Source of the DNA: Terriglobus sp. RCC_193
GTDB lineage: Bacteria > Acidobacteriota > Terriglobia > Terriglobales > Acidobacteriaceae
Length of the DNA stretch: 64,000 nt
Assembly: GCF_041355105.1 (NCBI RefSeq)
Contig: NZ_JBFUPK010000003.1
Coordinates: forward strand, 28,245-92,244
Reading direction: 5' to 3'
The notes under the pieces were generated by a model. That model was not told where the DNA came from. It searched no databases and saw only the letters and a list, made by a program, of their open reading frames with translations. Both the position numbers and the translations under genes were made by a program. Each line of letters starts with the position of its first letter. The stretch's first letter is position 1. Below, piece by piece: positions 13,785 to 47,227 of the stretch.

Positions 13785-14012
13785 TGAGCCGTCATCCTGA
13801 GCGAAGCGAAGAATCCCGACGAACTCTCGCAGTAGCGAAACTATCGAACCCTTCCGACCACAAAAACCGGGTGCCCCAGGTTCGCGAAGCTAACCTGGGC
13901 CGAGCGGCAAAGCCGCTCCCATCGTGCGAAAGCACGACCAGCGAAGCTCATACGGTCGAAGACCGTCATCCTGAACGAAGCCGAAGGACCTGCTTTCTTC
14001 TCACACCACTGC
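13785..14012. repeat. REP-like repeat cluster
   Basis: This occupies most of the 345-bp gap between metK and the GNAT gene. In order: the tcatcctgagcgaagcgaagaatc module, the stem-loop module gggtgccccaggttcgcgaag-ctaacctggg with a following cgagcggc-aaa-gccgctc hairpin (13869-13922), short GTGC-gaaa-GCAC and ggtcgaagacc palindromes, and a closing tcatcctgaacgaag...gaaggacctgc module. The same order recurs at 26.4-26.7, 41.2-41.5 and 44.5-44.8 kb. Confidence 0.92.
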
Positions 14013-26414: not shown

Positions 26415-26845
26415 CATCCATCTGTCATTCTGAGCAAAGCGAAGCATGCCCTGAGCGAAGCGAACGGAAATCCCAACAGACTCCAACTCACCACAATCGC
26501 TCGAAGCTTCCAGCCACAAACTCCGGGTGCCCCAGGTTCGCGAAGCTAACCTGGGCCGAGCGGCAAAGCCGCTCCATTCGCGCTGGAAGCGCGAACCAGC
26601 GAAGCTCATACGAACGAAGTTCGTCATCCTGAGCGAAGCCGAAGGATCTGCATTCCTCTCGCACCACTACGATTTTGCAGGAAGACAAGAAAGCATCAAC
26701 AATTCATACGCCGCTCCATACGAGCAACTCATACGTTGTTCCATACGAGCAAAGTGCGCCCTCTTCTCTCGGAAGGGAAGGGCTTCAGCCCTGCCGTAAA
26801 CGCCCACGAAAGCAAAGGGGCTTTAGCCCCGGAGGGAATGCAAAC
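26415..26845. repeat. REP-like repeat cluster
   Basis: This fills the 493-bp gap between the HAD gene and nei. Order: tcattctgagcaaagcgaagc module, gggtgccccaggttcgcgaag stem-loop with the cgagcggc-aaa-gccgctc hairpin (26526-26576), short GCGCtggaaGCGC and GAACgaaGTTC palindromes, tcatcctgagcgaagccgaagg, a stretch with three tcatacg(c/a/t) phrases (26705-26745), and finally the tctcggaag...gggcttcagccctgccgtaa and ggggctttagcccc module. No gene was found. Confidence 0.9.
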
Positions 26846-41190: not shown

Positions 41191-41655
41191 CATTCTGAGC
41201 AAAGCGAAGAATCTCCCCGCACTTCGCATCACCACAGCCGCCCCATTCTTTCCGACCACAAACCCGGGTGCCCCAGGTTCGCGAAGCTAACCTGGGCCGA
41301 GCGGCAACGCCGCTCCATTCACGCGAAAGCGTGAACCAGCGAAACTCCCACGAACGAAGTTCATCACCCTGTATCTCAGCGAAGCTCAAACGGTCGAAGA
41401 CCGTCATCCTGAACGAAGCGAAGCGGAGCTGAAGGACCTGCTTTCCTACACACCCGCTACAACGCACAAGGAAACCCAAAACGAACCATCAGCCAAAACC
41501 GAGTGCCCCAGGTTCGCGAAGCTAACCTGGGCATCGCTCCAAAGGAGCGATCAAACGACCGAAGGTCGTCTTCTCTCGGAAGGGGAAGGGCAGGGCTTCA
41601 GCCCTGCCGTAAGATCCGCCTGAACAAAGCGGCTTCAGCCGCTGAAGGAATATAA
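41189..41655. repeat. REP-like repeat cluster, left copy
   Basis: The gene-free stretch 41066-41665 is mostly this cluster: tcattctgagcaaagcgaagaatc, the gggtgccccaggttcgcgaag stem-loop (from 41266), gcgaaagcgtgaacc and gaacgaagttc palindromes, tcatcctgaacgaagcgaag, a second stem-loop copy with an altered follow-on hairpin (41500-41550: ATCGCTCC-aaa-GGAGCGAT), and the gggcttcagccctgccgtaag / gcggcttcagccgc module. Bases 41260-41408 are repeated almost exactly at 44534-44682. Confidence 0.93.
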
Positions 41656-44533: not shown

Positions 44534-44925
44534 AAACCCGGGTGCCCCAGGTTCGCGAAGCTAACCTGGGCCGAGCGGTAAAGCCACTCCATCCACGCGA
44601 AAGCGTGAACCCGCGAAACTCCCACGAGCGAAGTTCATCACCCTGTATCTCAGCGAAGCTCAAACGGTCGCAGACCGTCATCCCGCGAAGCTCAACGTCG
44701 AAGACATCATCCAGCGAAGCTCGAACGGTCGAAGACCGTCATCCTGAACGAAGCGAAGCGTAGCTGAAGGACCTGCATTCCTCCACACCCTCTACAACGC
44801 ACCAGGAAACCCAAACAACCAGCACCCACAAACCGAGGCCGGGTGCCCCACATCTCGATTCTGAGATGTGGGCCGAGCAGCGAAGCTGCTCCATTCACGC
44901 GAAGCGTGAACCAGCAAAGCTCTCA
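44534..44925. repeat. REP-like repeat cluster, right copy
   Basis: Within the gene-free 44410-45227. Bases 44534-44682 match 41260-41408 at 142 of 149 positions. Extra tcatc(c)...gcgaagctc units follow, then tcctgaacgaagcgaagc...gaaggacctgc. The end holds a variant stem-loop (44841-44890) in which the usual CCCAGGTT/AACCTGGG stem is replaced by CCCACATCTC/GAGATGTGGG while flanks gggtgcc and gccgagc(a/g)gc are kept. Confidence 0.93.
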
Positions 44926-44950
44926 TGGCCAAAAACCGTCACGCTGAGAA

Positions 44951-45227: not shown

Positions 45228-47096
45228 GTGCCAACCATCACCGAAGCAGAAATCAAAACGAACCTCACCAGCGAAACCATTCATAGGCCAAAAATCGGCT
45301 TCGTCTCGCTCGGCTGCCCCAAGAACCTCGTCGACTCCGAGGTCATGATGGGCATGGTTCACCACGCAGGCGCGCAGCTCACACCCGCCGCGGAAGACGC
45401 CGACATCATCGTCGTCAACACCTGCTCCTTCATCGACTCCGCCAAGCAGGAGAGCGTCAACACCATCCTCGAGATGGTGCAGCACAAGACCGAAGGCCGC
45501 GCCAAGCGCCTCATCGTCACCGGCTGCTTGGTCGAACGCTACCGCGACGAGATCCAGAAGAACATCCCCGAAGTCGACGCCGTCCTCGGTACCGGCGAAC
45601 TCGACGACATCCTCGCCGCCGCAGGTCTCACACCAAAGCCAGTCCCGAACAACAGCCCCTTCAACATCCTCTCCGGCTTAACCGCTTCGGCTCCGGCCAT
45701 TCTGAGTGAGTCAGCGCGCAACACCTCTTCGCCTGTCATTCTGAGCGGAGCGAAGAATCCCGGCGACGCCGCGCAGCAGCAAGCCGTTCAAACCCTTCCA
45801 GCCACAAATCGGGTGCCCCAGGTTCGCGAAGCTAACCTGGGTTCATCGCGCAACAGCGCGATCCCGACGCTGGACACGGCAACAGAGCCTCACGGCCAGT
45901 CCACGCCTTCGGAAGGGCAGGGCTTCAGCCCTGCCGTAAACCCCGCCCAGCAAGACGGGGCTTTAGCCCCTGAGGGTATTCTGGTCGACCGCGCCTCCAG
46001 CGCAGTCCGCAAGCACAGCCAGCTCGAAGTCCCAGAACAAATCTCCCGTCCCGAAGGCGACCTCCGTGAGAAGCAGGGCCGCTTTCGCCGCGACGACTGG
46101 GACGGCGCAACCGCCGAGCTGCCCAGCTACCTCTACTCCGACGAGACACCGCGCATCCTCAGCACACCGCGCGCCTCGGCCTACATCAAGATCGCCGAGG
46201 GCTGCGATCATCCCTGCGGCTTCTGCATCATCCCGCAGCTACGCGGCAAGTTCCGCTCGCGACGCATCTCCTCCATCCTCAACGAGGCGGAGAACCTGGT
46301 GAAGCAGGGCGTCCGCGAGATCACCCTCATCGGCCAGGACACCACCTGCTACGGTGAAGACCTCGGCATGAAGGACGGCCTCGCGATGCTCCTCGAAGCC
46401 CTCGCGACGCTGGAGGTCGAAGGCATCGGCCCCATCAAGTGGCTCCGCTTCCTCTACGCCTACCCGAACAAGGTCACTACCAAACTGCTGGAGACCATCG
46501 CGGCGCACGACAACATCGCCAGGTATCTCGACGTTCCCCTGCAGCACGCTTCGCCAACCGTCCTCAAGCGGATGAAGCGCGGCGGCAGCGGCGACATCTT
46601 CCTCCGTATGCTCGACAAGGCACGCACCATCGTTCCGGACATCGCCATCCGCACCAGCTTCATCGTCGGCTTCCCCGGCGAAACGGACGAGGAGTTTGCC
46701 GAACTGGAGTCCTTCATCAAGGCCGCTAAGATCGACTGGCTCGGCGTCTTCTCCTACTCCGACGAGGAAGGCTCACCCGCCTTCGACCTCGGCGACAAGG
46801 TGCCCAAGCGCACCATCGAATCCCGCCGCCGTAAGCTGATGCGCACCCAGCTCAAGCTCAGTGCCAAGGCCCGCGCCGCGCAGGTCGGCCAGGTAGTGGA
46901 AGTGCTGGTGGAAGGCCCCTCCGAGGAGACAGACCTCCTCTGGCAGGCCCGCACCCTCCAGCAAGCCCCCGAGATCGACGGCCACGTCCTGCTCAACGAC
47001 TTCGGCGACCACGAAGCCCTGATACCCGGCACCTTCTACCAAGCCGAAATTACCGAAGCCCACGACTACGACGTCGTCGCCAGGATCATCGAGTAA
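45228..47096 (+). CDS. rimO: Ribosomal protein uS12 methylthiotransferase RimO with repeat-derived insert
   Basis: A radical-SAM enzyme that methylthiolates Asp of uS12. The N-terminal MTTase domain (about 20-140) has Cys in SLGCPKNLVDSE, NTCSFID and VTGCLVER for its own cluster. The radical-SAM site is AEGCDHPCGFCIIPQLRG (C326, C330, C333), and the TRAM domain is C-terminal. At 622 aa it is about 180 longer than usual (near 440). The extra lies between the domains and includes in-frame REP modules (about residues 156-252). The reading frame stays open and both domains are intact. The start is GTG. Confidence 0.93.
   Translation: MPTITEAEIKTNLTSETIHRPKIGFVSLGCPKNLVDSEVMMGMVHHAGAQLTPAAEDADIIVVNTCSFIDSAKQESVNTILEMVQHKTEGRAKRLIVTGCLVERYRDEIQKNIPEVDAVLGTGELDDILAAAGLTPKPVPNNSPFNILSGLTASAPAILSESARNTSSPVILSGAKNPGDAAQQQAVQTLPATNRVPQVREANLGSSRNSAIPTLDTATEPHGQSTPSEGQGFSPAVNPAQQDGALAPEGILVDRASSAVRKHSQLEVPEQISRPEGDLREKQGRFRRDDWDGATAELPSYLYSDETPRILSTPRASAYIKIAEGCDHPCGFCIIPQLRGKFRSRRISSILNEAENLVKQGVREITLIGQDTTCYGEDLGMKDGLAMLLEALATLEVEGIGPIKWLRFLYAYPNKVTTKLLETIAAHDNIARYLDVPLQHASPTVLKRMKRGGSGDIFLRMLDKARTIVPDIAIRTSFIVGFPGETDEEFAELESFIKAAKIDWLGVFSYSDEEGSPAFDLGDKVPKRTIESRRRKLMRTQLKLSAKARAAQVGQVVEVLVEGPSEETDLLWQARTLQQAPEIDGHVLLNDFGDHEALIPGTFYQAEITEAHDYDVVARIIE
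45735..45982. repeat. REP-like modules inside rimO coding sequence
   Basis: Three modules appear in the order seen elsewhere. First is gtcattctgagcggagcgaag (from 45736, read VILSGAKNP). Second is gggtgccccaggttcgcgaa with its stem partner ctaacctggg (45809-45841, read RVPQVREANLG). Third is tcggaagggcagggcttcag...ccctgccgtaa with ggggctttagcccctgaggg (45909-45977, read SEGQGFSPAV and DGALAPEG). The stems are intact and no stop codon is created. Confidence 0.92.
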
Positions 47097-47113: not shown

Positions 47114-47227
47114 CGCGGGTGAACCGCGTATCCTCGACTGACATCGGGCCAAAGGCCCGAGCTATCTTAGCCTAGGGCGAAGCCCTAGGTTCACGACCTC
47201 ACCAAGACTACGAAGGGCTGAAGGCCC
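47114..47227. repeat. Run of four short-loop hairpins between rimO and the next gene
   Basis: In series: CGCGG-gtgaa-CCGCG (47114-47128), CGGGCC-aaa-GGCCCG (47145-47159), CCTAGGGC-gaa-GCCCTAGG (47171-47189) and GGGC-tgaag-GCCC (47215-47227). The gap between rimO and the 142-aa gene is 152 bp and is almost wholly this array. It is a different family from the ccaggttcgcgaag modules. Confidence 0.88.

Follow-up and report, generated by a model that had tools for sequence, protein, structure and literature searches.

What does it mean when both arms of a repeated stem-loop differ from the usual ones while still pairing perfectly? The question is raised by a hairpin at 44841-44877 of the window, by which we mean the whole stretch of 64,000 nucleotides analysed here (C3:28245-92244 of a 4.2-Mb assembly in nine contigs). 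The hairpin is part of a repeat array located between two divergent genes, a peptidase gene on the minus strand and rimO on the plus strand, and it carries the usual foot (GGGTGC) and the usual tail (CCGAG) with a different stem in between. This stem is 10 bp long and 100% complementary (11 bp if a G-T pair is counted), and the DNA fold of 44820-44950 is strong relative to dinucleotide shuffles (z = -4.7). The sequence-only reading had described one copy with a variant perfect stem in the flanks shared by most copies. We confirmed the variant stem and its flanks, but not that the copy is single, as a search of the whole genome found a second copy of the identical 37-mer with the same tail at C2:6299. 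The features discussed below are collected in Table 1. Our main reading, to which we assign a probability of about 0.82, is that the hairpin at 44841 belongs to a second REP-like family, B, and sits where the composite repeat would normally carry a hairpin of the family that is common in the window (A), each family being the end-sequence of a distinct lineage of REP-associated tyrosine transposase (RAYT, an HUH enzyme).

Table 1. Hairpins and associated elements in the window
Feature	Coordinates	Strand	Basis
Composite 5′ part (cagcacccacaaaccgaggcc)	44820..44840	+	homologous to upstream part of A composites; aligned with L020 and L010
Constant foot GGGTGC, 5′ of hairpin	44841..44846	+	exact at 114/133 hairpins beside related RAYT genes
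B-type hairpin CCCACATCTC-GATTCT-GAGATGTGGG	44847..44872	+	B family match
5′ arm CCCACATCTC	44847-44856		
Loop GATTCT	44857-44862		
3′ arm GAGATGTGGG	44863-44872		
Tail CCGAG	to 44877		
Second hairpin, composite tail, GAGCAGC-GAA-GCTGCTC	44875..44891	+	alignment with A composites; fold
Third hairpin, composite tail, TTCACGC-GAA-GCGTGAA	44894..44910	+	alignment with A composites; fold
A-type hairpin with foot, neighbour in same intergenic array as 44841	44540..44570	+	
A-type hairpin with foot	13869..13899	+	
A-type hairpin with foot	26525..26555	+	
A-type hairpin with foot	41266..41296	+	
A-type hairpin, in frame within rimO (45228-47096)	45811..45841	+	

Chance does not account for these hairpins, since the general pattern GGGTGCCCCA-N(6,36)-TGGG has 134 matches in the genome and the exact variant stem, CCACATCTC-N-GAGATGTGG, is found at 17 places, while the reversed-pattern control gave 0 matches in both cases. 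Hairpins of the form GGGTGCCCCA..TGGG are common across the genus and come with many different stems. The A stem (AGGTT/AACCT) is present in 92 copies in the own genome and in three in G003, and in none of the other 17 genomes of the genus; five of these copies are in the window (Table 1), and in all but the one at 45811 the hairpin is directly followed by GCCGAG. The B stem (CACRTCTC/GAGAYGTG) is present in 26-29 copies in the own genome, 26 being exact pattern matches, and the family was found in 9 of the 19 genomes of the genus. It is therefore the seemingly rare stem of the window that is widespread, whereas the one common here has expanded locally. With a length of 31-32 nt and many copies, the hairpins are within the range of REPs, which are palindromes of 20-40 nt present many times per genome.

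We then turn to the transposases. The own genome encodes five Y1_Tnp genes. One of them (C2:1662386-1662898, L071) has B hairpins on both sides, in the form of perfect inverted 32-mers, GGGTGCCCCACGTCTCGCTTTTGAGACGTGGG. The encoded 171-aa protein matches the NCBIfam profile NF047646 at 89.1 bits (cut-off 80), PF01797 over its cut-off and the E. coli TnpAREP structure 4er8 (E 7e-7), and shares with its relatives the H-x-H and Y-x-H-x-NP motifs, with H61, H63, Y116, N120 and P121 invariant; on profile and on HUH and Y---NP motifs it is a RAYT. B-type ends are also found at the RAYT loci L301 and L311, and A-type ends at the RAYT gene of Acidobacterium sp. S8 (L318), so each family has a cognate RAYT flanked by its own hairpin. 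Since A-type and B-type ends are found at different RAYTs, A and B are two separate REP-like families, each tied to its own transposase lineage. None of the five Y1_Tnp genes of the own genome has A-type ends, and the A copies here may thus be relics or have been moved in trans.

The association between foot, stem and transposase extends well beyond these loci. A scan of GTDB genomes yielded 80 acidobacterial relatives of the RAYT, of which 78 have an inward-facing GGGTGC-foot hairpin no more than about 300 bp away; in 55 such hairpins lie on both sides as an inverted pair, and in the opposite-orientation control the corresponding counts were 24 and 2. The 5′ arms to the left and to the right of a given gene agree with an identity of 0.945, versus 0.392 after shuffling. 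Among the flanking hairpins the foot is constant and the stems are variable: of 133 feet, detected with one mismatch tolerated, 114 read GGGTGC and seven GGGTGG, and the 5′ arms comprise 44 different 8-nt cores. In the RAYT tree of the genus, the genes with GGGTGCC hairpins cluster (4 changes versus 12.4 shuffled) and the 8 stem types track the tree, needing 8 changes. Further Y1_Tnp genes (L068, L070 and L072, with the relatives L103-L106) have quite different inverted hairpins beside them, e.g. AGCGCCAAAGGCGCG..GCCTAGGCC..GGCCTAGG and GGGCAGGGCTTCAGCCCTGCC, and several further transposase-repeat systems therefore coexist in the genus.

How did a B hairpin come to be in the array? The 44841 copy aligns with the A composites L020 and L010 on both sides of the hairpin, for about 50 bases upstream and 65 downstream, and the hairpin itself is B. 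Judging from this alignment, the composite is homologous to those of A except that a B hairpin fills the place of the A hairpin. The 5′ flank as sole proof of a swap was dropped: the ccacaaa stretch in the composite 5′ part is also found beside a few B copies, and something similar accompanies the B copy in hisC. Since that flank is not A-specific, the argument rests on the two-sided homology and on a half-A remnant. The latter is provided by the copy at C2:6281, GGGTGCCCCAGGTTCGC-C-GGGTGCC(B)TGGG-CCGAG, in which B stands between the left half of A and the A tail. As this copy still carries the A left half before B, it was the whole cassette that was swapped, and since A and B are separate families at different RAYTs, the stem at 44841 represents exchange of a whole hairpin rather than paired point changes. 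The exchange took in the loop and the stem length as well as the stem sequence.

By analogy with REP/TnpAREP, the hairpin would fold in single-stranded DNA, and the RAYT would read its foot, loop and stem, cut near it and join the strand elsewhere, so that short copies spread. A B hairpin would have landed in, or recombined with, the A hairpin of a composite. On the simplest path, with the order of steps taken from the one intermediate-like copy at C2:6281, B would have arrived at the A loop and the right half of A would have been lost between two TGGG repeats; subsequent copying of the composite, together with small deletions, would then have given rise to the window copy. Similar products would be expected if composites had undergone homologous recombination or template switching with one another. 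More generally, the GGGTGC-foot hairpins of Acidobacteria may be interchangeable cassettes, such that the hairpin of one RAYT can be placed in the composite of another family and mosaic repeats trade whole stems with the foot fixed as a shared guide, a generalisation that we offer tentatively and think doubtful as yet.

Hairpins of this kind also come and go as whole elements. The entire array is missing at the orthologous locus in G003 and G013, where the DNA is about 92% identical. The B copy C3:131748, within hisC, is at the same site in G000 and G005 and missing in G003 and G013, indicating gain or loss of a whole element. Several copies lie in frame within genes. The hisC gene (G000:C3:131719-133115, L149) contains two in-frame B elements, each read as GAPRLDSETW, the N-terminal one being common to G005, and hisB contains one, read as GAPHLTSEMW. 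In rimO (45228-47096) an in-frame insert around 45700-45985 comprises several repeat modules, including the A hairpin, read as RVPQVREANLG; the insert is not present in rimO of the close relatives G003 and G013.

A perfect hairpin follows the copy in 93 of 110 cases for A and 9 of 29 for B, compared with 2.9% of random places. The second hairpins after A copies, at most 7 nt away, have 17 different perfect stems, mostly with AAA/GAA loops, some in the opposite sense (AAAA/TTTT). These A-tail hairpins are a stronger case of stems changing with pairing kept than is the hairpin at 44841.

The sequence-only reading took the paired change at 44841 as evidence that the hairpin, not the sequence, is maintained, and named a lack of significant covariation across copies as evidence to the contrary. 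We measured covariation by pair counts with shuffles and slid-structure controls; the within-family pairing counts were anchored on the foot plus the 5′ arm or apical part only. Among 105 A copies, 99 are perfectly paired at six inner positions and fall into three stem versions, with seven CAGGTG/CACCTG and two CACCTT/AAGGTG variants; for B, 24 of 27 copies pair perfectly, and one pair is A-T in 12 and G-C in 12. In 30 distinct 31-nt copies from three genomes, 92.1% of cells are paired, versus 74.1% after shuffling, and the covariation score reaches 0.494 versus 0.150 shuffled and at most 0.185 for slid structures; in 30 distinct 32-nt hairpins (mostly RAYT ends, and mostly found by pairing, so that their percentage paired is biased) it is 0.282 versus 0.098, all of these being counts and not probabilities because the copies share kinship. 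Compensatory covariation within the families is real, and in the families and at the RAYT ends pairing is indeed kept as sequence changes. The claim fails for 44841 itself, where the variant has turned out to be an independent family that is found genus-wide and flanks its own RAYT. The proposal that the A element at 44841 changed both arms by compensatory mutations, with the hairpin selected as RNA or cruciform DNA, is in keeping with the variants within A and B and with covariation above shuffles, but here the differences affect the loop, the length of the stem and every inner stem base simultaneously, the new hairpin belongs to a family with its own RAYT ends, and a copy with half of A still before B exists; we consider this scenario scarcely credible. 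Nor is covariation alone proof of a selected structure, since template switching during replication can keep pairing without selection, creating and mending perfect stems in one event (PMC8794818). An account in which template switching or gene conversion both keeps the pairing and exchanges the hairpins, without the hairpin being selected or a transposase being active, gains from the 17 perfect A-tail stems with the same kind of loop in AAAA and TTTT senses, and from the shared TGGG and foot sequences, which are possible switch points. It could explain the swap at 44841 alone, but it leaves unexplained the inward-facing hairpins at 78 of 80 RAYT genes, the left-right match of their stems and the agreement with the RAYT tree, and we judge it rather unlikely.

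It is also conceivable that the hairpins are mainly RNA elements, acting within transcripts in mRNA stability, termination or regulation, with pairing kept for that purpose. The RNA fold of the region is strong (z = -4.8) and published REPs are often transcribed (PMC3733652), but the array is located between divergent genes, no terminator-like site or promoter was found at it, and it has no Rfam match at gathering scores; moreover, some copies lie within reading frames, and what stays constant is the unpaired foot, which the transposase ends share. We regard an RNA role as quite improbable. The sole Rfam match in the window at gathering scores, an Acido-Lenti-1 RNA at 47145-47189 on the minus strand (43.2 bits, gathering score 37), is unrelated, and there is no tRNA in the window to which the elements could be linked. 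The covariation seems to fit better with a single-stranded DNA hairpin read by RAYTs than with an RNA element, and the evidence favours such a hairpin over the RNA or cruciform DNA that had been proposed from the sequence.

Our reading of 44841 as a B hairpin in an A slot corrects a tempting inference: a change in both arms is not by itself compensatory evolution when repeat families share their flanks. It also brings to light a RAYT system with a constant, non-GTAG foot and 44 distinct 5′-arm sequences among 78 transposases, well suited to learning how RAYTs read stems and how stem and enzyme change together.

Among known systems, Rickettsia palindromic elements (RPEs) are similar in that palindromic elements lie in frame within genes, as in the HisC protein with its two GAPRLDSETW segments. 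RPEs have CGTC at their ends and share with the other CGTC repeats the lack of an associated transposase gene (PMC3733652), whereas the present family has a GGGTGC foot and a link to RAYTs. TIRYTs and their TIRtrons (Di Nocera 2013, PMC3733652; subclass 2.1, PMC6006769), which have been described in Acidobacteria (PMC3733652), likewise combine a Y1 transposase gene with terminal inverted repeats. Unlike those repeats, the ones described here pair with themselves to form hairpins, share a constant foot and are present many times in the genome; the TIRtron motif GGGG[AT][CG]A[CG] is not in the foot and its complement (GGGTGCCCCA/TGGGGCACCC), and the protein has only 171 aa, in contrast to the long proteins of subclass 2.1 with their additional C-terminal domain. 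The closest comparison is with the REPtrons formed by REPs and RAYTs (PMC2817692, PMC3686654, PMC8266576). The foot lacks the canonical REP tetranucleotide GT[AG]G, reading GGGTGC rather than GTAG or GTGG in the A and B copies of the window, and since this one defining feature fails we class the elements as a variant of the REP/RAYT kind and not as canonical REPs. In the largely open-access literature that we read, we did not find a GGGTGC foot described. The host, an acidobacterium, belongs to a phylum not among the hosts of GTAG repeats in PMC3733652, and differences are also seen in the hairpin of one family sitting in the composite of another and in the several copies that are in frame within genes. 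In REPINs and BIMEs, one REP is present twice, close together and in inverted orientation; inverted neighbours were seen in relatives as individual cases, and A copies in the own genome are followed by other hairpins. The similarities lie in short hairpins of high copy number whose 5′ head is constant and whose palindromic stem varies, in a RAYT gene between inverted copies of the same hairpin, in the coexistence within one genome of classes that differ in stem and belong to different RAYTs, and in the possible loss of a RAYT while its copies stay. REP classes that combine a constant head with a varying palindrome, and that have a RAYT of their own, have been described (PMC3686654). Single-stranded REPs are bound and cut by purified TnpAREP, which reads the head as well as the stem and the loop or bulge (PMC8266576). 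By this likeness of anatomy, the A and B elements would work as REP/RAYT systems do.
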